Assembly: GCA_023662725.1 (NCBI GenBank)
Contig: JAMPIL010000011.1
Span: forward strand, 1-58,314
Source: Ruminococcus flavefaciens
GTDB taxonomy: Bacteria > Bacillota > Clostridia > Oscillospirales > Ruminococcaceae
Reading direction: 5' to 3'
DNA: 58,314 bases
Positions 1,429-50,819 of this stretch are shown here, piece after piece (position 1 is the stretch's first letter; each line of letters begins with the position of its first letter). The notes beneath the pieces were generated by a model. It saw only the letters and a program-made list of their open reading frames with translations, was not told the DNA's origin and did not search any database. The position numbers and the translations under genes were made by a program.

Positions 1429-2210
1429 CGAAATTTTGGAACTTCGTAAAAAACGAAGAAACATCAGAAACGGAACTGTACTTTGAAGGTCCAATCTCAA
1501 ATGAGACGTGGTGGGGTGATGAGCTCACACCAAAAATTTTCAAGGATGAACTTGCAAAGCATCCCGGAGACCTAACAATTTGGCTCTGCTCGCCGGGCGG
1601 AGATGTGTTCGCAGCAAGTCAGATATACACCATGCTTCGCAATCATAAAAGCAAGGTGACTGTAAAAATTGACGGCATCGCTGCAAGTGCGGCATCTGTT
1701 GTTGCTATGGCGGGCGATGAAACGCTGATCAGTCCAACGGGCTATTTGATGATCCATAACCCCATGACTTTGGCAAGCGGAAACAAGTCTGATATGGAAA
1801 AGGCGATTGCTCTGCTTGAAGAGATCAAGGAAGGCATTATTAACGCATATGTCCGAAAAACAGGGCTTTCCCGCAATAAAATTTCAAAGCTGATGGACGA
1901 TGAAACTTGGCTCAATGCTGAAAAAGCGTTGCAGCTTGGATTCGTTGATGGCATTCTTTTTGATGAGAAGAAAAAGCCGATTACTCCCGAAGAGAATGAG
2001 CCCGATGAAGATGAACCTGATGAAAAATCAAAGGAAGATGATTCTGACGAGGATGAAGAAAATCTCGATAAACCGCAGAAAAATACAACTTCCATGCTGT
2101 ATTCCCCGACAAAAACCACTGCTTCTTTGATGCAGAAAATATCCGCTATGACACCGAAAGGTGTTCCCATAAATCAGCTTGAAAAACGGCTGGCACTTCT
2201 TAAAAATTGA
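1425..2210 (+). CDS. Head maturation protease, ClpP-like (S14)
   Basis: A 261-residue ClpP-fold prohead protease that would cleave the capsid scaffold during head assembly. The nucleophile is Ser88 in GIAAS, the histidine is His111 in MIHNP, and the acid is Asp158/159 in the MDDETW segment, all in ClpP order. Residues about 180-220 are almost entirely Asp, Glu, Lys and Pro, and a further tail follows. HK97-type siphoviruses often keep a scaffold-like region here or at the N-terminus of the capsid protein, so this acidic part may act as scaffold (inference). The start overlaps the portal stop and the stop is 14 bases before the capsid start. Confidence 0.92.
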   Translation: MTKFWNFVKNEETSETELYFEGPISNETWWGDELTPKIFKDELAKHPGDLTIWLCSPGGDVFAASQIYTMLRNHKSKVTVKIDGIAASAASVVAMAGDETLISPTGYLMIHNPMTLASGNKSDMEKAIALLEEIKEGIINAYVRKTGLSRNKISKLMDDETWLNAEKALQLGFVDGILFDEKKKPITPEENEPDEDEPDEKSKEDDSDEDEENLDKPQKNTTSMLYSPTKTTASLMQKISAMTPKGVPINQLEKRLALLKN

Positions 2211-2224
2211 TTGGAGGAATGATT

Positions 2225-5200
2225 ATGACCATTCAGGAACTGAGAGAAAAAAGAGCAAAGGCGTGGGACGAGGCACGAAATTTCCTCGATTCCAAGCGTA
2301 ATGACAGCGGAATTTTGTCCGAAGAGGATTCCAAAACCTATGATGCAATGGAAGCTCAGATCGTAGCTTACGGCAAGGAGATCGACCGTCTGGAGCGTCA
2401 GGAAAAGCTGAATGCCGAGATGAACGCACCGACTTCCACGCCCATTATGTCCGTCCCTGGAGGACATTTTGCCGATACCGAAAAGTCGGGCAGAGCTTCA
2501 GCGGAGTACAATAAAGCTTTCTGGAACAACGTCCGCAACCGCAACTGGGTGGACGTTCGCAACGATTTACAGATCGGCGAAGATGCTGAAGGTGGATTTT
2601 TGTGTCCGAATGAATTTGAGAAAAAGCTCATCGAATCTCTGGAGGAAGAAAACGTTTTTCGTCCTCTTGCAACGAAGATCCAGACATCAAGCGGCGACAG
2701 AAAAATTCCCATTATTACGCAGAAAGGCGAAGCTGTCTGGATGGAGGAGGAAGAAGCCTATACCCTTTCCGATGATACTTTCGGTCAGCTCAACTTGTCA
2801 GCATACAAGGTCGGCACAGCAATCAAGATTTCCGAGGAACTCCTCAATGACAGTGTGTTCGATCTTCCTTCATATATTGCGAAGGAATTCGGTCGCAGAA
2901 TCGGCGCAAAAGAAGAGGAAGCCTTTCTTGTTGGTGACGGAAAAGGCAAGCCGACTGGCATTTTCACTGCCGTTGGAGGTGCGCAGAACGGTGCAACGAC
3001 TGCTGCGGCAAGCATTACTTTTGATGATATGCTGGAGCTTTTTTATTCCGTGAAGTCGCCTTATCGCAAGAAAGCAGTATGGCTTCTGAACGAGCGGACG
3101 TTGAAAATACTACGTAAAATCAAGGACAGCAACGGGCAGTATATTTGGCAGCCCGCAATTTCAGCAGGTGTTCCCGACACGATTCTGAACCGTCCTTATG
3201 TCACTTCCGTTTACGCACCGACTCCCGATTCGGGAAACAAGGCTGTCGCTTTTGGCGATATGTCGTACTATTGGATCGGTGCGACTTGTTCCTAATTGAA
3301 AAGATTAGGCACAGATATAAATATATTTGTGAACTGATGCTTTGATGTGTGGAATGACAGGGTAATGCCTTGAAACGCACACTCTAATCTCCGACTGGCA
3401 TTTCCGAGAAATTGGATTTGTCAGAAGCTCGGTGAAGTCGGCGGAAGCATACCGTAACAGCATAACATCGTGCTGACGAAATCGTTCCAGAGGTGGAATG
3501 TGTATGTGACACGCCGGGAGTCTATAAAATATCTATGGTGAGAATGTCCGATGACGGATTGACGAATCTGCGAATGTACGGGTCTAAAAGTAGATTTCAT
3601 AGAAATGTGAAACTGTCTTAAATGGCAGTCAGTGCGGTTAAGTAAAAATCGATCCTCTGAAAGACCGTTCTGCATTACAGGTGCAGACAAGCTGACAGGC
3701 TCAGAGCAGACACCTACGGATATATGCACAGATAAAAGTATCGGAACAAGGAAAGGTACAGGGTTGCAATGCAATATGAGGACGAAGAAAATAAGCCGCA
3801 GAACCTGTGCTGAAAAGCGAAGCTCGAACCATTGAAGTGCTTGTAATGAGCATGGAGGGATGGGCTTTAGTCGAAATCGTTATTTTATTGCTATTCAGTC
3901 GTATAAGGATTCGAGTATGACAAAAAGGGACGCTTTCCCCGAAAGGAGAGTGATGCCTTATGCCAAATTCTAAACCCAAAAATAAACCGCTATGTATAGA
4001 AACCCTAAGACACTCCGAATATTACGGATTACAGAAAACATTTGAAAAGCTATATCAGCAAAGCGCACAGGGAGAAATATTTTCCTCTCTTATGCCGTTG
4101 ATTTTCAGCAAGGAAAATATTCTGCTCGCATACCGTAATATCAAAGCGAACAAAGGCAGTAAAACACCGGGAACTGATGGAGTTACCATGAATGAAATAG
4201 GAAAATTGTCGCCGGACGAAGTAACTGCAAAAATTCTTTACATAGTTAAAGGCAGCAAACACGGATACAGACCCAAACCTGTACGAAGAAAAGATATTCC
4301 AAAACAATCAGACCCCACTAAAACACGTCCTCTTGGAATTCCGTGTATGTGGGACAGATTGATACAACAATGCGTTAAACAAGTGCTTGAACCAATCTGC
4401 GAAGCAAAATTTTCAAACAGAAGTTACGGCTTTCGCCCCAACAGAAGTGCAAGAGATGCAATTGGCAGGATGAATTTCCTACTTCAAAATGCAAATCTGC
4501 ATTATGTGATTGAGTTTGACATAAAAGGATTCTTTGACAATGTAAATCACAAAAAATTGCTGAAGCAAATCTGGACACTTGGCATCCATGATAAAGAATT
4601 ACTGTATGTGATTCAGAAAATTCTGAAAGCCCCTGTTAAGATGCCGGATGGAAAACTCATTCTACCTGACAAAGGCACACCGCAGGGTGGAATCATATCC
4701 CCATTGTTAGCAAATATTGTTCTGAATGAACTTGACCACTGGATAGAAAGTCAGTGGGAAAATAATCCGATAGTAATCAAACACACACATTGCTACAACG
4801 GAATAGTTAACAAGGGGGCTGGATACCAGATAATGCGTAAAACCGGCATGAAAGAAATGTTCATTGTGCGGTATGCAGATGATTTCCGCATATTTTGTAG
4901 AAACAAATCAGATGCACAGAACATTCTTACGGCGGTAACGCTCTGGTTGAAAGAAAGACTGAAACTTGAGGTGTCCCCAGAAAAAACGAAGATTGTGAAT
5001 GCAAGAAAATATAACACGGAATTTCTTGGCTTCAAAACCAAATTGTACAGTAAAGGGAAAAACAAATTTAAAGTAGTTTCTTATATGGGAGACAAGGCTC
5101 TGAAAAATGCAAAAGAAAAGCTGGTTCAACAAGCACACCGCATTGCAAAACCGCCCAGGAACTCAACAGAAGCGTATGAAGTTATGTTATATAACACGAT

Positions 5201-6172
5201 TGTTATGGGTATTCAGAATTATTATAGTCCTGCTACCCTCATCTCTGCAGATTGCAGAGTATTGCATCGTGCTGTAATGACAACACTCACCAATCGCCTG
5301 ACATCCGAAAGAGGAACACGTCTTGTCAGAAAAGGACGTAAACTAACAGATGTAGAACAGAAACGATATGGAAAATCAAAAATGCTTCGTTTCCTTGCTG
5401 GTACAGAAGAACCTATCTACCCAGTCGGATTTATCAAAAATCAACCCGCATTACAAGGGAAAAACATAAGTATATATACACCGGAAGGACGAGAATATTT
5501 CCACACAAACCTTCAAATCAATACGTCACTATTGATGAAACTGATGCAAAACTCACATCTATGTAAAAGTGTGGAATATGCAGATAACAGAATATCACTG
5601 TTTTCAGCTCAAATGGGGAGATGCTCAGTTACAGGCAAAGAATTCACCTGTACTGACGAAATACATTGCCACCATATCATACCCAAAAAGCTTGGCGGTA
5701 ATGATAAGTATAGTAATCTTACTCTTGTGCTAAACAGTGTACACATTTTGATTCATGCCACCGACGGTGAAACAATACGCAGGTATCTCTCTATTCTGAA
5801 TTTAGATAAAAACGGCAAAAGGAAACTAAACGCTCTCCGTGAAAAAGCTAATAATCCTCAAATTTGAAAATAACTGGTGAAGAAACATTGGTAGACTGAT
5901 ATAAGCGAAAACATATAACGATTTCGATGGCACGCCGTGTGCGGTGAAAGTCGCACGCACGGTGTAGAGTGGGGGAAAATTCCGAGATAATATCAGAGAA
6001 TTATCTATCACTATCTGATCGTCAGGGACGTTCTCTCAAGAGACTCAACGAACTGTTTGCCATGAACGGACAGGTTGGATTCCTTGCTTCTCAGCGTGTG
6101 GATGGAAAGCTGATTCTTCCCGAAGCAGTGAAAACACTCACGATCAAGGGAACTCCCACCGCAAAGGCGTAA
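2225..6172 (+). CDS. Major capsid protein (HK97 fold), split by a group II intron; join 2225..3278 and 6015..6172
   Basis: Exon 1 (2225-3278) carries an N-terminal delta-like coiled segment of about 100 residues, then the HK97-fold body (FLCPNEFEKKLIESL, KISEELLNDS, FLVGDGKGKPTGIF, and the late FGDMSYYWI strand). Exon 2 (6015-6172) supplies the C-terminal end (DRQGRSLKRLNELFA, QVGFLASQRVDGKL). Joining base 3278 to base 6015 restores the codon GCT and gives the family sequence WIADRQGR, for 403 residues in total, the normal length. Without splicing, translation reads seven codons or fewer into the intron and stops at 3293-3295. Start ATG 2225 follows GGAGG at 2213-2217; an upstream TTG at 2207 is not needed. 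Virion production therefore depends on RNA splicing. Confidence 0.92.
3650..3655 (+). other. EBS1 of the group II intron
   Basis: CGATCC in the intron domain I region is the exact reverse complement of the last six bases of exon 1 (3273-3278). This pairing defines the 5' splice site and the DNA target during retrohoming. A matching EBS2 was not assigned with confidence. Confidence 0.7.
3960..5867 (+). CDS. ltrA: Group II intron-encoded reverse transcriptase/maturase with HNH endonuclease
   Basis: A 635-residue LtrA-type protein. An N-terminal RT0/RT1 region (GSKTPGTDGVT, KTRPLGIP) is followed by FDIKGFFDNV (186-195), GTPQGGIISPLLANI (239-253) and the active-site YADD (305-308). Then comes the maturase X domain, and a C-terminal HNH endonuclease of about residues 565-615 with CSVTGKEF, CHHIIPKKLGG and a final H-rich segment. 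It binds the intron RNA, helps splicing, nicks target DNA and reverse transcribes the intron. The start follows GAAAGGAG and no frameshift is seen, so all enzymatic parts appear intact. It lies wholly in intron domain IV and is transcribed with the capsid gene. Confidence 0.95.
   Translation: MPNSKPKNKPLCIETLRHSEYYGLQKTFEKLYQQSAQGEIFSSLMPLIFSKENILLAYRNIKANKGSKTPGTDGVTMNEIGKLSPDEVTAKILYIVKGSKHGYRPKPVRRKDIPKQSDPTKTRPLGIPCMWDRLIQQCVKQVLEPICEAKFSNRSYGFRPNRSARDAIGRMNFLLQNANLHYVIEFDIKGFFDNVNHKKLLKQIWTLGIHDKELLYVIQKILKAPVKMPDGKLILPDKGTPQGGIISPLLANIVLNELDHWIESQWENNPIVIKHTHCYNGIVNKGAGYQIMRKTGMKEMFIVRYADDFRIFCRNKSDAQNILTAVTLWLKERLKLEVSPEKTKIVNARKYNTEFLGFKTKLYSKGKNKFKVVSYMGDKALKNAKEKLVQQAHRIAKPPRNSTEAYEVMLYNTIVMGIQNYYSPATLISADCRVLHRAVMTTLTNRLTSERGTRLVRKGRKLTDVEQKRYGKSKMLRFLAGTEEPIYPVGFIKNQPALQGKNISIYTPEGREYFHTNLQINTSLLMKLMQNSHLCKSVEYADNRISLFSAQMGRCSVTGKEFTCTDEIHCHHIIPKKLGGNDKYSNLTLVLNSVHILIHATDGETIRRYLSILNLDKNGKRKLNALREKANNPQI
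5932..5965 (+). ncRNA. Group II intron domain V (catalytic hairpin)
   Basis: Exactly 34 bases: an 8-bp lower stem (5932-5939 with 5958-5965), a 2-base bulge C5956-G5957 on the 3' side, an upper stem (5940-5945 with 5950-5955) and a GAAA tetraloop at 5946-5949. The catalytic triad near the 5' side reads CGC (5933-5935). These are the diagnostic features of group II domain V. Confidence 0.92.
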
Positions 6173-6175
6173 TTT

Positions 6176-6448
6176 ATGATTACATTAGCTGAGGCAAAAA
6201 ATTATCTGCGTGTAGATCACTGCGAGGACGACAAACTGATTTCCGACCTGCTGTTGACGGCAAAAAAGCTATGTATGGACGTTGGACGCATGAGCGAGGA
6301 AAAGTTTGAGAGGAATGAGGATACTACCAGAACTGCGGTACTGTACACAGTTTCCTACCTCTACGAAAACCGAAATACTGCGGATTTTCACAAGCTGACT
6401 CTCACCTTGCGTTCCATTTTATTTGCACAGCGTGAGGGAGTGATTTAG
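6176..6448 (+). CDS. Head-tail connector protein, gp6-like
   Basis: A 90-residue protein beginning MITLAEAKNYLRVD, the standard opening of the phage gp6-like connector family that forms the first ring below the portal. It is 3 bases after the capsid stop in the expected place of the head-completion genes. The frame ends in a TAG (6446-6448) that overlaps the next start. That TAG serving as a real stop is evidence against amber reassignment in this phage. Confidence 0.85.
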   Translation: MITLAEAKNYLRVDHCEDDKLISDLLLTAKKLCMDVGRMSEEKFERNEDTTRTAVLYTVSYLYENRNTADFHKLTLTLRSILFAQREGVI

Positions 6449-6801
6449 TGGAAATCGGGAAATTAAATCAACGTATCACGATATTGGAACACAGCACAAA
6501 AATTGATAATATCGGCAATCACAAGGCTCAGTGGGACGAGTTATTCTCCTGCTGGGCTGCTGTTTCGGTGAAAAATTCGGCTGAAAATTCCGATAACGGC
6601 ACGACAAAAGAAGTGCAGACCTTGCAGTTTATGATCCGGCAAAATAATATGACAACAAGGATTTCTACAACTGCAAACCGCATTTCTTTTCGTGGTGTAA
6701 TTTATGATATTATCGGAATATCGCCGAATTATGAGTATCGTGATTATCTGAAAATTACTGCAAAAGCAAGGAAAGCAGGTGTGCAGGATGACCAGTATTG
6801 A
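6448..6801 (+). CDS. Phage head closure / head-tail adaptor protein
   Basis: A 117-residue protein with the head-tail joining family pattern: N-terminal IGKLNQRITILE, central W-DELFSCWAAV, and a C-terminal beta strand RISFRGVIYDIIGI. It forms the second connector ring that closes the filled head. It starts with GTG at 6448, sharing a base with the previous TAG, so the two genes are translationally coupled. Confidence 0.83.
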   Translation: MEIGKLNQRITILEHSTKIDNIGNHKAQWDELFSCWAAVSVKNSAENSDNGTTKEVQTLQFMIRQNNMTTRISTTANRISFRGVIYDIIGISPNYEYRDYLKITAKARKAGVQDDQY

Positions 6802-7156
6802 CGATATGGCTGACGAAATTATGAAAGGCTTACAGGAATACGCTGACCTTGCAGATACAGCTATGAAAAAGGCAGTTCGCAAGACTGCAACGTCTGTGAA
6901 AAAGGAGATTTCCGAAAATGCTCCGAAACGAACAGGAAAATATGCGAAAAGCTGGACGACTAAGAAAATCAAGGAGAATAGCCATTCCCTTGAAATAACT
7001 GTTCATTCCAAAGACCGCTATCAGATTGCACATTTACTCGAAAAGGGACACGCTAAACGTGGCGGCGGACGTGTAAATGGCAAGCCGCATATTGCTCCCG
7101 CCGAGGAAAACGGTGCGGATTTATTGGAATCTCTCATCGAGAAGGAGTTGTCATGA
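6788..7156 (+). CDS. HK97 gp10-like tail completion / head-tail joining protein
   Basis: About 122 residues; the AKKAVRKTATSVKKEISENAPKRTGKY-type segment (alternating basic helix then PKRTG) and the HLLEKGHAKRGGGR motif are characteristic of the HK97 gp10 family, which helps attach head and tail. I place the start at ATG 6788, with AGG just upstream, rather than GTG 6779. It overlaps the preceding gene by 14 bases and the following one by 4, so it is part of one tightly packed connector block. Confidence 0.82.
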   Translation: MTSIDDMADEIMKGLQEYADLADTAMKKAVRKTATSVKKEISENAPKRTGKYAKSWTTKKIKENSHSLEITVHSKDRYQIAHLLEKGHAKRGGGRVNGKPHIAPAEENGADLLESLIEKELS

Positions 7157-7470
7157 ATTACGAAGAAATCAACGAATTAATGCAGGAAATGGGACTTCCT
7201 TTCGCCTATCATCACTTTGCCGAGGGAGAAAGTCCGAAGCCGCCGTTTCTGATTTTTCTTTCGCCGGGCGAGAATACTTTTTCGGCGGATAACCGGATGT
7301 ATCACAGCTTTAAAAAGCTGGATATTGAACTCTATACCGATGAAAAATCTCCCGAAACAGAGGCGGAAATCGAGTCGGTTCTCAGACGGCATCATATTTT
7401 TTACAATAAAACTGAAACATGGATTGCATCTGAGGAGATGTATGAAGTGTTATACGAAATGGAGGTATAA
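7153..7470 (+). CDS. Probable tail terminator / tail completion protein
   Basis: A 105-residue protein with no strong motif. Its size, its beta-rich C-terminal half (LDIELYTDEKSPETEAEIESVL, then a short strand region) and its place between the gp10-like protein and the major tail protein match the tail terminator/minor capsid slot of siphoviruses. Similar phage proteins are usually annotated only as hypothetical. ATG 7153 overlaps the previous TGA. Confidence 0.65.
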   Translation: MNYEEINELMQEMGLPFAYHHFAEGESPKPPFLIFLSPGENTFSADNRMYHSFKKLDIELYTDEKSPETEAEIESVLRRHHIFYNKTETWIASEEMYEVLYEMEV

Positions 7471-7473
7471 GCT

Positions 7474-8079
7474 ATGGCACTGAAAAAGAATAAGGTCAAA
7501 TTCGGCTTGAACAAGGTGCATTGGGCGAAAATTACAGCGTGGTCTGATGATGGTGTGCCGACATTCGATACACCCGTGAGAATTCCCGGTGCGGTATCGC
7601 TTTCCATCGATGCCAACGGCGAAAACGAGAATTTCTACGCCGATAACACGGTTTACTACGTTATCAACAACAACGCAGGGTATACCGGAGACCTTGAAAT
7701 CGCACTTATCACCACCGATTTTGCAACTGAAATTCTCGGTGAAATTCAGGATACAAAGGGAGTGCTTGTGGAGCGTAACGACGCTGAAACTGCACAGTTT
7801 GCACTTTTGTTTGAATTTAACGGCGATAAGAATCACATCCGCCACATGCTTTACTGCTGTACAGCAAGCAGACCGAAAACGGAATCTTCCACCACGGAGG
7901 AAAGCACAGAGGTCAAGACGGAAACGTTGTCTCTCAAAGCATCTGCACTCCCTGACGGTCTTGTCAAATCCAAAACCTGCGAAAATACGGATGAAACTAC
8001 CTATAACAACTGGTACAAATCCGTATATATTCCGACTTTTTCAACGGCTGCTAAGACGACCACCAAAACAACGACTTAA
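7474..8079 (+). CDS. Major tail protein, phi13 type
   Basis: A 201-residue tail tube subunit. The opening KVKFGLNKVHWAKIT, the PGAVSLSIDANGE segment, the ADNTVYYV piece and the NAGYTGDLEIALI segment fit the phi13-family major tail proteins, whose hexamers stack into the tail tube. The C-terminal 40 residues are Thr-rich (AAKTTTKTTT at the very end) and may be a flexible tail. It is 3 bases after the previous gene, with its own GGAGGT ribosome site, which suits a highly expressed subunit. Confidence 0.88.
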   Translation: MALKKNKVKFGLNKVHWAKITAWSDDGVPTFDTPVRIPGAVSLSIDANGENENFYADNTVYYVINNNAGYTGDLEIALITTDFATEILGEIQDTKGVLVERNDAETAQFALLFEFNGDKNHIRHMLYCCTASRPKTESSTTEESTEVKTETLSLKASALPDGLVKSKTCENTDETTYNNWYKSVYIPTFSTAAKTTTKTTT

Positions 8080-23003: not shown

Positions 23004-24554
23004 ATGAATATTTCGGTTATTGAAGCAAAAGAAATATCACATGATAAAAAGCTGAAAGTGGCTGCATACTGCCGTGTTTCAACAGAGTTTTCCGATCAGC
23101 TTGAAAGTCTTGAAACTCAGAAGGCTCACTATGAAACGATGATACGCAGAAATCCGTCCTGGGAGTATGCAGGGCTGTATTACGATGCAGGTCTTTCGGG
23201 GGTAAAAACCGCAGGCAGAGATGGCTTGCAGAAATTACTTGCAGACTGCCACACAGGAAAAATTGACCGCATTCTGACGAAATCCATAAGCCGTTTTTCA
23301 CGGAATACCGTGGATATTCTTGAAATTGTCCGCATTCTTTTGGATATGAACATTTCAATTTATTTTGAGAAAGAAAACGTCGACAGTTCTGCAATGGACG
23401 GAGAGATGCTGCTGACAATTCTCGGCAGTATTGCAGAGAATGAATCTGTTTCCATTTCCCAAAATGTTAAGTGGTCAATAAAAAAGAAGTTTCGCAGCGG
23501 AACATTCAAAGCGTCATATTTGCCATTGGGATATACTAAGGACGAGCATGGCGATATGGTGATCCAACCCGAAGAAGCAGAAATTGTCCGATGGATATTC
23601 GAGTCCGCTATTAACGGCAGCAGCACACATAAAATTGCAAAAATGCTTCGTGAAAAGAATGTTCCCACAAGAAAAGGCGGTATGTGGAGTGCATCCACCG
23701 TAAGAGATATTATCACCAATGAAAAATATATGGGTGACGCTCTTTTTCAGAAAACATACACAGATGAAAGTTTTCATCGTCATACAAATAAAGGAGAAGT
23801 CGAAAAAACACTTGTACAGGGGCATCATGAGCCTATCGTCAGCAAGGAGACTTTTGACAAAGCAAATGCAGTTATGATGCAGCGTTCATCCGAAAAAGGC
23901 ATAGTCAGGGGTACTGATAAATATCAGGCACGATATGCTTTTTCAGGCAAAATCATCTGCGGAGAATGCGGCGGTACATTCAAGAGAAGAATCCATGATC
24001 ACGGTTCGGAAATTGCATGGACTTGCAGAACGCACATTGATGATATTCAAAAATGCTCCATGAAATTTGTGTCCGATAAGTTCATAAAAGCGGCATTTGT
24101 TACGATGCTCAACAAACTGATTTTTGCACATAAATTGGTACTTTTGCCATATATTGAGGAGCTGAAGCGAAAAGGAAAAAGTGATCATTTTGATGATGTG
24201 CAACGTTTGCAGGAGAATTTGCAGAAAAACACTTCACAGCGTGATAATCTGCGTCTTTTAAGAGCAAAAGGCATCATTGACGCCGCTGCTTATGGGAAGG
24301 AAAATAATTTTCTGAAAAAGCAGGCTGAAGAACTGAGAATGGAAATCGCACGTATTTCCTATGCAAATATGCACGCTTCCGAAACAGTAAAGGAGGCAGA
24401 AAAACTGCTGAAATTTGTACAGGAATCGCAAATGATGATGGTGTACAGCGATGAACTTTTTACAGCATTTGTTGAACACATCGTTGTTTTTGAGAGAAAA
24501 TGCATAGGTTTTGAAATGAAATGCGGTCTGATGCTAAAGGAGGTGCTGGAATGA
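23004..24554 (+). CDS. Large serine recombinase 1 (site-specific integrase/excisionase)
   Basis: A 516-residue large serine recombinase. Residues 18-150 are the resolvase catalytic domain: AAYCRVSTE contains the nucleophile serine, followed by KSISRFSRNTVD and a helical region ending at NESVSISQNV. The recombinase domain follows (FKASYLPLGY, AEIVRWIFE, STVRDIITNEKYMGDALFQKTY), then a zinc ribbon CGECGG plus a second Cys pair (CRTH...KC), and a coiled coil at about 390-470. It would integrate and excise the prophage, together with the two genes overlapping downstream. Confidence 0.9.
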   Translation: MNISVIEAKEISHDKKLKVAAYCRVSTEFSDQLESLETQKAHYETMIRRNPSWEYAGLYYDAGLSGVKTAGRDGLQKLLADCHTGKIDRILTKSISRFSRNTVDILEIVRILLDMNISIYFEKENVDSSAMDGEMLLTILGSIAENESVSISQNVKWSIKKKFRSGTFKASYLPLGYTKDEHGDMVIQPEEAEIVRWIFESAINGSSTHKIAKMLREKNVPTRKGGMWSASTVRDIITNEKYMGDALFQKTYTDESFHRHTNKGEVEKTLVQGHHEPIVSKETFDKANAVMMQRSSEKGIVRGTDKYQARYAFSGKIICGECGGTFKRRIHDHGSEIAWTCRTHIDDIQKCSMKFVSDKFIKAAFVTMLNKLIFAHKLVLLPYIEELKRKGKSDHFDDVQRLQENLQKNTSQRDNLRLLRAKGIIDAAAYGKENNFLKKQAEELRMEIARISYANMHASETVKEAEKLLKFVQESQMMMVYSDELFTAFVEHIVVFERKCIGFEMKCGLMLKEVLE

Positions 24555-24955
24555 GCCATATTCCCTACGGCTACGAAATGATTGACGGACAGGCAGTCGT
24601 CATTGACGTTGAAGCCGATACTGTAAGGAAGATTTTCAGAAATTACATATCGGGAATGAGCCTGCGTCAATCAGCAGAATCTGCCGGACATCCAATTGCC
24701 CACAGCATGGTGAAGCGGCTGCTGAAAAGAAAATGTTATCTCGGCGATGCTTTTTATCCGCAAGTTATCGACAAGGAACTTTTTGAACAGGCCAACGCTG
24801 AGCTTAACAGACGTGCAGGCGAAATCAATCACAGGCTGCGAAAAAGAAAAGAGCCTTTCATTTATATGGACTTTGTGGCTGACGTTCCCATGGAGCAGTT
24901 CGAAGATCCGAAAGAACAGGCAGAATATGTATACAGTTTGATTGGAGTGAGGTAA
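24551..24955 (+). CDS. Recombinase-domain protein lacking the catalytic serine domain
   Basis: A 134-residue protein starting at ATG 24551, overlapping the TGA of recombinase 1. It contains only the recombinase DNA-binding part: IPYGYEMIDGQAVVIDVEADTVRKIF, MVKRLLKRKCYLGDAFYPQ and a basic end RRAGEINHRLRKRKEP. The resolvase domain, zinc ribbon and coiled coil are absent. Short proteins of this kind stand between two large serine recombinases in several clostridial elements. It may act as an accessory or directionality factor (inference). The stop touches the start of recombinase 2. Confidence 0.8.
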   Translation: MSHIPYGYEMIDGQAVVIDVEADTVRKIFRNYISGMSLRQSAESAGHPIAHSMVKRLLKRKCYLGDAFYPQVIDKELFEQANAELNRRAGEINHRLRKRKEPFIYMDFVADVPMEQFEDPKEQAEYVYSLIGVR

Positions 24956-26503
24956 ATGGCGAATATTATCACGATCCCGGCAAAACCACCGAAAGGCAAT
25001 ACGGTAAAAAAACAGGAGATTAAAAAGCTCCGTGTGGCGGCGTATGTCCGTGTTTCCACCGATACGGAGGAACAATCTACAAGCTATGAGGCACAGTACG
25101 AACATTATCAGGAGTATATCAGCCACAATCCCGAATGGCAGTTTGCAGGTATTTACGCTGATGACGGAATTTCGGCGGTCAACACAAAGAAACGTGAAGA
25201 GTTCAACAGAATGATTCAGGACTGCATGGACGGAAAAATTGATATGCTCATAACGAAGTCAATTTCAAGATTTGCCAGAAATACCGTTGACTGTCTGAGA
25301 TATGTACGTATGCTCAGAGACAAAAATATACCGATATTCTTTGAAAAAGAGGGTATAAATTCGATGGATAAGGGCGGAGAAATCATGCTCACAATTATGG
25401 CTTCCATGGCACAACAGGAATCGGAATCCATCAGTCAGAACGTAAAAATCGGCATTCAGTACCGCTTTCAGCAGGGAAAAATCATGGTGAATTGTGCCTG
25501 CTTTCTCGGCTACGATAAGGATGAGGACGGAAATCTTGTGATCAATCCCGAACAGGCGGAGGTTGTCAAGCGCATCTTTCTGGAATATCTTGAAGGTGCA
25601 AGCTGCCTGAAAATTGCAAAAGGATTGGAGCGTGACGGTATTCGCACGGCAAGGGGCAGTACTAAATGGCATGATAAAACAATTCGTCAGATTCTCGAAA
25701 ATGAAAAATACATGGGTGATGCCCTTTTGCAGAAAACTATTACAGTTAATCTCCTGGAGAAAAAGCGCACCAAAAATACAGGTGCATTACCGCAGTATTA
25801 TGTGGAGGATAGTCATCCTACGATCATTCCAAAGGAACTGTTTATGCAGGTTCAGGAGGAAATCGTACGCCGCAGCACAAACCGCAGCAATAAATGCGGT
25901 CACAGCTCCAATACCTGCTTTTCGCAAATGGTCTTTTGTGGTGACTGCGGTGAGCCGTTCCGCAGGGTACATTGGAATAATCGCGGCAAAAGGTCGATAG
26001 TGTGGCGATGCACTTCCCGACTGGATAAAAAAGAAGAGTGCATTGCACGAACAGTTCACGAGGAAACATTGGAAGCCGCCTTTATGGAAGCACTGAATCG
26101 CTTACAGATTGGCAAAACCGAATATCTGAAAAAGCTGCAGGACAATCTTGAAAATGCCCTTAATTCCTGCAATATCGAAGAACAGGAGCGTATTGATACA
26201 AGGCTAGGCGAACTACAAAGGATTCTGCTTGAAAAATCCAATCATCATGAGAATTACGATGATGTTGCCGAGGAGATACTTTCCCTTCGAGAAAAAAAGG
26301 AGAAGTGCCTGATGGACGGCAACGCTCGTAAGCAATTTGTAAAACGCATTAAGGAATTGCAGGAGATTATTCTTGAAAAGTCTACGGGGTTCCGTGAATT
26401 TGATGAAACGCTGGTAAAGCATCTGCTGGCAAAGGTTACGGTTTTTGAAGAACATATGATGTTTGAATTCAAGTCAGGAATTAGCGTGGAAGTGAATATG
26501 TGA
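24956..26503 (+). CDS. Large serine recombinase 2
   Basis: A 515-residue large serine recombinase of the same build as recombinase 1 but clearly different in sequence. The catalytic domain has AAYVRVSTDTEEQ with the nucleophile serine, ITKSISRFARNTVD and MLTIMASMAQQESESISQNV. The recombinase domain includes KIMVNCACFLGYDKDEDGN and TIRQILENEKYMGDALLQKT. The zinc ribbon is VFCGDCGEPFRRV with a later WRCTSR...EC pair, followed by a coiled coil at about 380-470. It overlaps nothing but is directly abutted to the middle gene, so all three are one transcription unit. Confidence 0.9.
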   Translation: MANIITIPAKPPKGNTVKKQEIKKLRVAAYVRVSTDTEEQSTSYEAQYEHYQEYISHNPEWQFAGIYADDGISAVNTKKREEFNRMIQDCMDGKIDMLITKSISRFARNTVDCLRYVRMLRDKNIPIFFEKEGINSMDKGGEIMLTIMASMAQQESESISQNVKIGIQYRFQQGKIMVNCACFLGYDKDEDGNLVINPEQAEVVKRIFLEYLEGASCLKIAKGLERDGIRTARGSTKWHDKTIRQILENEKYMGDALLQKTITVNLLEKKRTKNTGALPQYYVEDSHPTIIPKELFMQVQEEIVRRSTNRSNKCGHSSNTCFSQMVFCGDCGEPFRRVHWNNRGKRSIVWRCTSRLDKKEECIARTVHEETLEAAFMEALNRLQIGKTEYLKKLQDNLENALNSCNIEEQERIDTRLGELQRILLEKSNHHENYDDVAEEILSLREKKEKCLMDGNARKQFVKRIKELQEIILEKSTGFREFDETLVKHLLAKVTVFEEHMMFEFKSGISVEVNM

Positions 26504-50613: not shown

Positions 50614-50650
50614 AGAAAATCCTTTTTACATAAAAATGTAATCACAGATC

Positions 50651-50815
50651 TATCTTCTTTCATCCGGACTTTAACTGTGCCTCAAAAATGAAACACAGAC
50701 TATCCGCTTTAAAAAGCGAATAACCGTTGGCTTCGGAATTTCACCGAATCAGCCTCATAACGAGGGTCGCAGGCTTTACTGCCAGTAGGGAATTTCACCC
50801 TGCCCTGAAGATTAA
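50651..50815 (-). ncRNA. FMN riboswitch (RFN element)
   Basis: Read on the minus strand it starts with ATCTTCAGGGCAGGGTGAAA, followed by TTCCCTACTGGCAGTAAA, GCCTGCGACC, then GATTCGGTGAAATTCCGAAGCC and ends with AGTCCGGATGAAAGAAGAT. All the conserved RFN blocks are present; one variable hairpin is at the P6 position. It senses FMN and controls the rib operon through the terminator at 50595-50613. Confidence 0.95.
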
Positions 50816-50819
50816 AATC

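Follow-up and report, generated by a model that had tools for sequence, protein, structure and literature searches.

A group II intron splits the major capsid gene of a prophage in Ruminococcus flavefaciens, and the intron bases that pair with the flanking exons appear to follow the reading frame of that gene in the manner of a string of anticodons. The intron lies on contig JAMPIL010000011.1 (GenBank assembly GCA_023662725.1), which we analyzed over its whole length of 58,314 nucleotides and refer to as the window; it is one of the 70 contigs of a 3.11-Mb assembly (C2 in our numbering). We consider it probable that the element is a mobile IIB-type intron whose codon-phased guide sits in a conserved capsid motif and which is spliced out for capsid production. 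The exon-binding sequences (EBS) of its family probably evolved as an in-frame anticodon string, with which the element reads amino acids and homes across phages and conjugative elements. The codon pattern of the guide emerges from comparison with related introns, and it goes beyond an earlier note on this DNA because the pattern is invisible in a single window.

The host gene encodes an HK97-type major capsid protein. Exon 1, at positions 2225 to 3278 of the forward strand (codons 1 to 351 and the first base of codon 352, within the frame 2207-3295), matches Pfam family PF05065 (Phage_capsid) with an E value of 2e-65 and was bounded by alignment of the joined protein; exon 2, at 6015 to 6172 on the same strand and including the stop codon, was defined by the joined frame and homologues. 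The 5' joint at 3278/3279 reads TATTGGATCG followed by GTGCGACTTG, and the 3' joint at 6014/6015 reads CACTAT followed by CTGATCGTC. The earlier note had named the capsid gene as host and proposed that joining 3278 to 6015 restores its frame (WIADRQGR) and a 403-residue protein. Both claims held: the joined sequence encodes SYYWIADRQGR and 403 residues from the ATG at 2225, and in the comparison with intronless homologues that the note had proposed, two Ruminococcus phage capsids aligned in one piece across the joint, over residues 1 to 403, at 84.9%. Read unspliced, the capsid frame meets a stop codon at 3293-3295, 15 to 17 bases inside the intron. The joined capsid matched 524 phage records, and in 289 a single place covered at least 80% of the query. 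Among the best 80 capsid loci from viral contigs, a ranking that favors unsplit genes, 78 are uninterrupted, L175 is truncated by its contig's edge, and L213 (on the contig of L028) is split. Among the 40 capsid genes listed from 125 genomes of the genus, with E values of 1.7e-84 or better, 36 run through, one is cut by a contig edge, and three are split by introns, namely those of the source genome and of genomes G084 and G120.

The intron itself is complete, with exact splice sites, as the earlier note had held: it occupies positions 3279 to 6014 of the forward strand (2,736 nt, GTGCG...CTAT), and the Rfam models, the joint, and every position given in that note agree. Its ends, GTGCG at 3279 and AT at 6013-6014, conform to the GUGYG/AY rule. 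Full-length matches above the cutoff were obtained both for the group II D1-D4 core (RF02004, 3329-3528; 173.6 bits against a gathering threshold of 34.5) and for domains V and VI (RF00029, 5930-6014; 54.1 bits, model positions 1 to 77 complete), the latter ending exactly at 6014; the unpaired A of domain VI at 6007, read off the Rfam alignment, is the candidate branch point. An uninterrupted frame at 3960-5867 on the forward strand encodes a 635-amino-acid protein with a reverse transcriptase (RT)/maturase region containing YADD and a C-terminal HNH domain (TIGR04416, 343.7 bits against a cutoff of 300; RVT_1, E value of 2.9e-41; HNH, 24.4 bits against a cutoff of 21.4). Over its initial 452 nt, the intron has a better fold than each of 100 shuffled sequences (z score of -4.2). 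Rfam placed no group I family above the cutoff anywhere in the window, and a scan of the intron for promoters and terminators found no more than in shuffles.

To place the exon contacts, we scanned 81 introns, unsupervised and with no prior placement, for windows that could pair with the exon ends of the same intron. The best 6-base position, fully paired in 50 of 80 related introns, was EBS1 (CGATCC, 3650-3655), which pairs perfectly with the intron-binding sequence (IBS) IBS1 (GGATCG, 3273-3278), the very pairing that the earlier note had proposed; the best 5-base position, fully paired in 45 of 78 relatives, was EBS2 (AGTAG, 3589-3593), which pairs with IBS2 (CTATT, 3268-3272) and is common to the three introns inserted at this capsid site. 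Windows unrelated to either reached at most 21/81 for 6 bases and 23/81 for 5 bases. EBS3, the G at 3704, pairs with the C at 6015, the first base of exon 2; this contact is of the Watson-Crick type in 65 of 68 relatives, compared with 25 of 40 for the next candidate column. These placements, all on the forward strand, supply the further contacts that the earlier note had wanted located. Pairing of EBS3 with IBS3 for the 3' exon, together with EBS2/IBS2 pairing, distinguishes IIB introns from the IIA and IIC classes, and by these exon contacts the window intron is of the IIB type. All six EBS1/IBS1 and all five EBS2/IBS2 positions are paired, with one G.U pair, in EBS2/IBS2. Read against the capsid codons, EBS1 consists of C for the G of the Ala codon, the Ile anticodon GAU, and bases 1 and 2 of the Trp anticodon CCA; EBS2 supplies the last base of that anticodon, A, then the Tyr anticodon GUA and the wobble G of the next Tyr.

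Such a reading presupposes a fixed register between intron and reading frame, and most of the family shares this register. Among introns with both ends, 74 of 85 lie in phase 1, that is, after the first base of a codon, by open reading frame length alone; reading doubtful frames by hand brings the count to 90 of the 94 introns that could be assigned and, by site, to 45 of 48 clusters, or 45 of 49 if L049, a phase 2 intron merged into a phase 1 cluster by the similarity threshold, stands alone. The first of two rounds of hand calls by itself gave 42 of 50 clusters (P = 2e-13 against one third). The usable 5' ends numbered 98, and 4 introns (L087, L144, L045, and L078) were left without a phase; the hand calls set L015, L100, L102, L039, L033, L034, the first intron of L107, L089, L090, and L141 to phase 1, L049 and L097 to phase 2, and L099 to phase 0. 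Phase 1 places codon third positions at -2, -5, -8, and -11, and it is the only phase in which neither of the bases flanking the insertion, -1 and +1, is a third position, which we propose as the reason for it. Two other causes were considered and rejected. An early stop codon does not favor phase 1, because stops are commoner in the phase 0 reading (in-frame stop within 24 nt in 82 of 98 introns, versus 55 of 98 in phase 1), and a target sequence motif is too weak, the largest signal in the de-duplicated logo being 0.58 bit (A at -12). Other intron classes are too few to generalize: RF02012 gave 14 loci, 9 candidate 5' ends, and 5 upstream frames of at least 50 codons, all in phase 0, and 28 of 30 RF02003 loci examined gave 10 candidate 5' ends and no upstream frame longer than 103 codons.

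The codon rule was examined in one best-paired intron from each of 45 independent sites, keeping helices with at least 5/6 EBS1 or 4/5 EBS2 pairs (83 EBS1 and 77 EBS2 helices of the 90 phase 1 introns; 40 and 36 of 45 in the one-per-site set). G.U pairs occupy 52 of 152 third-position cells, compared with 4 of 268 others; choosing a random intron per site gave 53/152 and 4/268. Opposite a target T, the guide carries G in 35 of 39 cells at third positions and in only 4 of 68 at other positions. The guide base follows the codon class: G faces 66 of 71 codons ending in C or T (35 C and 31 T among the targets), U faces 31 of 35 ending in A or G (18 A and 13 G), and C faces all 12 Trp and Met codons. 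Ile codons are met by G in 7 of 10 cells, and the 24 fourfold-degenerate cells by G in 10, U in 11, C in 2, and A in 1. When the helix filter was dropped, the rule was obeyed in 117 of the 133 cells for which it makes a prediction, whereas in 1,000 deals of the guides to other sites, the obeying fraction averaged 0.418 and never exceeded 0.549. The rule holds in 52 of 53 cells in the clade of the window intron and in 37 of 45 in a second clade (that of site C, below). The residues read by the guides are also enriched in those with two codons and in Trp and Met (130 of 180, versus 1,264 of 2,759 in the background of the same exons). A holdout set of 72 loci provided 33 introns with a 5' end, of which 29 were new and 19 had an assignable phase: phase 1 in 18 and phase 0 in one. 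Its 17 distinct guides had G.U pairs in 20 of 54 third-position cells versus 1 of 95 others and obeyed the rule in 36 of 42 cells, or without the filter in 39 of 50; shuffling gave 0.443 on average and at most 0.600.

The capsid genes themselves contain six introns of the family, at three sites in five genes. Three of them interrupt site A, which follows the first base of the Ala codon of YYWIA: the window intron, that of L034 (Ruminococcus UBA7014, on a contig that breaks off just past the intron and has a run of N in exon 1), and that of L136 (G084). The introns at site B (YIWQ^P) are those of L028 (IMG/VR) and L107/L137 (G120); the L137 gene has a second intron, at site C (VWME^E). A tree of 92 intron proteins groups the site A introns in a single clade and those of site B in a neighboring one; the tail-tube intron is sister to that of site C within a distant clade, and each of the three groupings has support of 1.00.

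If the guide reads codons, it should fit many alleles of its target. We defined reach as full pairing of EBS2, EBS1, and EBS3, with G.U allowed except at -1 and +1. By this measure, the window guide (AGTAG, CGATCC, and G) fits site A in 56 of 74 distinct intronless capsids but in only 7 of 74 when G.U pairs are disallowed; the plain complement of the window's own target reaches 7 of 74 even with G.U. The guide of the G120 site B intron fits 52 of 74. When 1,156 possible insertion points were ranked by the reach of their best guide, site A came second and site B fifth; in residue conservation, the two stand only at the 91st and 92nd percentiles. The source genome encodes a second, intronless capsid (C44, 56% identity) which reads YYNIGDR and gave at least four mismatches at the six points tried; it lacks the Trp and is no target.

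The earlier note had also suggested that the intron could spread between capsid genes, and both silent divergence and the occupation of the same site in three genomes support this; its alternative, control of lytic growth by the intron, is unsupported. Between the window and G084, synonymous divergence (dS) reaches only 0.29 (95% interval, 0.23 to 0.36) in the intron protein, versus 0.93 (0.69 to 1.23) in exon 1 and 0.80 (0.47 to 1.73) in exon 2; three genes downstream gave 0.54, 0.61, and 0.96. The sequences next to the insertion show no increase in identity (86 of 100 bases on the 5' side and 39 of 50 on the 3' side). These values support entry of the intron into at least one of the two capsid genes after the phages had diverged, apparently with no exchange of flanks; such absence of coconversion is what retrohoming at the RNA level predicts. 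Slower silent change in the intron protein is an alternative to movement, and L034 is too diverged to inform on the question (1.70 versus 1.38). Comparison of the two intron-bearing phages gave ratios of nonsynonymous divergence (dN) to dS of 0.054 and 0.08 for the two parts of the capsid gene and of 0.10 for the intron protein. The low values of both exons suggest that the spliced capsid is in use and imply that the virion would depend on splicing.

Taken as a mechanism, these data suggest that a mobile group IIB-type intron homed into the highly conserved YYWIADR motif of the capsid gene and that its splicing allows the capsid to be made. EBS2, EBS1, and EBS3 would pair with 12 target bases in fixed register to the reading frame, with Watson-Crick pairs in general and, at codon third positions, the wobble base of a tRNA: G against codons ending in C or T, U against those ending in A or G, and C against Trp and Met. 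The window guide would read Tyr-Tyr-Trp-Ile-Ala as G / GUA / CCA / GAU / C, with CCA divided between EBS2 and EBS1. A protein motif rather than one DNA sequence would thus be recognized, so that the same gene could be entered in phages differing at silent sites. Copying into the new site would fall to the RT/HNH protein, a step which is established group II chemistry. The guide may have been selected because it widened homing or because it kept splicing robust to silent drift; we favor selection for reaching synonymous variants, with robustness of splicing a close second, and the data do not separate the two.

Several observations weigh against this interpretation. L049, L097, L099, and L145, as well as L318 in the holdout, are not in phase 1, and a circular position weight matrix by itself expects a fraction of 0.69 in that phase. 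Exceptions to the rule make up roughly a tenth of the cells (9 of 118 with the helix filter and 16 of 133 without it); mismatches, too, are commoner at third positions (12/152, versus 6/268 elsewhere), and the tail-tube guide has at one third position an A that mismatches the window's allele. The holdout is only partly independent, since some of its introns occupy sites of the first set (L319, for example, lies at the Maff2 site) and a single site accounts for three (L307, L308, and L331). Nor is reach uniformly wide: the L028 guide for site B fits 1 of 74 capsids (68 with one mismatch), and site C ranks 233rd of 1,156, with a guide that fits 3 of 75.

The strongest competing explanation is passive drift, in which guides begin as Watson-Crick complements and later silent changes in the host are tolerated as G.U pairs, making the pattern a by-product of purifying selection. 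We regard this as unlikely, although the host genes are under purifying selection, introns at site A with a single guide face alleles differing only at -2 and -11, and tolerance of G.U in EBS1 is known for Ll.LtrB (PMC6248898). Under drift alone, guide A should face target T equally often at third positions and elsewhere, but it does so in 4 of 39 cells there and 64 of 68 elsewhere; moreover, drift leaves phase 1 and the preference for two-codon residues (the 130 of 180 above) unexplained. Folding or protein contact could instead force G or U at positions 2 and 5 of both EBS1 and EBS2, the codon register following because no phase but phase 1 tolerates this constraint. EBS1 position 2 is indeed G or U in 38 of 40 independent phase 1 sites. 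However, the third-facing base is C at every Trp or Met codon, agreement falls from 88% to 42% when guides are dealt to other sites, so the base follows the codon, and two of four introns outside phase 1 have A or C at EBS1 position 2; these facts make such a constraint highly improbable as the explanation. Least plausible of all is a dead insertion that simply broke the capsid gene of a relic prophage, a view to which the decayed copies elsewhere in the genome (C70, with two stops in its protein, and C13, degenerate) and the start of the contig inside the phage lend some color but which is at odds with the intact exon contacts, the open intron protein, the low dN/dS of exons and intron protein, and the occupation of site A in three genomes.

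With codon-phased guidance as the preferred reading, we turn to its relation to known systems. Some homing endonucleases tolerate variation at the codon third positions of conserved motifs; like the window intron, they target a conserved motif and accept silent change, but they do so through protein-DNA contacts, whereas the intron would use an RNA guide with the wobble pairs of the genetic code. RNA-guided mobile elements are commonly viewed as recognizing nucleotide sequences. A guide tuned to the genetic code would explain how these introns persist in the fast-diverging genes of phages and conjugative elements, their sites at two-codon residues and Trp, and their insertion after the first codon base. 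It would make targets predictable from protein alignments, might offer a rule for degenerate RNA-guided targeting, and would allow a simple assay to test how retroelements track a gene over evolutionary time.

We found no report of codon-phased exon-binding sequences in the open-access literature, a scope outside which most subscription papers fall. Group II introns have been reported in phages (PMC12350094, 2025), and those introns resemble ours in lying in coding genes of tailed phages, in matching the same Rfam models, and in that many have RT proteins and intronless homologues; a word search of the main text of that report returned no capsid, codon, wobble, or synonymous. Relative to that text, the capsid and tail-tube sites, the repeated invasion of capsid genes, and the apparent codon phasing of the guides are added here. 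EBS1 of Ll.LtrB, GUUGUG, pairs with 64 sequences by means of G.U (PMC6248898) and is thus similarly widened, but the passages on it describe no codon register. A conjugative transposon of Clostridioides difficile, Tn5397, likewise has a group II intron in one of its genes, orf14, and this intron is reported to splice in vivo with the help of its protein (PMC4430133); L014, a relative of the window intron in an NlpC/P60-like gene (named by eye), is likened to it by description. Self-splicing introns in major capsid genes are also described for mycobacteriophage LittleE, where splicing was shown, and lactococcal phage Tuc2009 (PMC3706429), but these are group I introns moved by endonucleases, with no RNA guide. 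Another report regarded a prophage helicase interrupted by a putative group II intron as inactivated (PMC11318856).

Besides the major capsid gene, the tail-tube gene appears as a recurrent home of these introns. In G084, the phage whose capsid carries a site A intron has another family member in its tail-tube gene (L136:2445-5141, minus strand), and the break in the blastn alignment places the corresponding empty site in the window at 7639/7640 on the forward strand, within the gene at 7474-8079 (PF04630). In G120, one capsid gene (L137:6321-12982, on the contig shared with L107) carries a pair of group II introns, at sites C and B, that belong to different clades. Elsewhere, a Pfam scan of 41 exon pieces from other sites matched a type IV coupling-protein family in five cases and DNA polymerase III alpha in two; single matches included resolvase, UvrD helicase, methylases, Maff2, and others, and inspection of translations by eye suggested VirB4-like and NlpC/P60-like hosts. 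The 5' exon at L109:2167-3216 matches DNA polymerase III alpha. For viral contigs, a scan with a single protein recovered no relative, whereas a scan with an alignment found relatives. Four records labeled Bacteriophage sp. (L012 to L015; MT836027, MT837963, MT837465, and MT839876) look by eye like pieces of conjugative elements, and MT836027 was discarded for resembling one in PMC12350094. The L068 intron (3261-7339; 4,079 nt) is about 1.27 kb longer than its close relative L051 (2,805 nt) and may contain a nested insertion. In G614, introns with the same guide lie before or within frames ending in ...YFYD at four loci (L357, L358, L359, and L360); by eye only, the host gene has the look of sugar-nucleotide synthesis.

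The source genome probably hides more intron copies in assembly gaps, as two further intron 5' ends reach a contig end or a stretch of N (L018:4957-5006 and L019:8248-8281). The window begins inside the prophage, with a portal gene (157-1428), a ClpP-type protease gene (1425-2210), and then the capsid gene, followed by tail genes, a holin, an amidase, and serine recombinases. The protease gene starts at 1425, directly after the portal gene, which ends at 1428; in the closest intronless phages, a gene annotated as phosphoadenosine phosphosulfate reductase lies between the two (L114:4139-5224). At the end of the phage genes, two serine recombinase genes enclose a recombinase-like frame of 144 amino acids (23004-26503), and an FMN riboswitch (99 bits) lies on the minus strand at 50648-50816.

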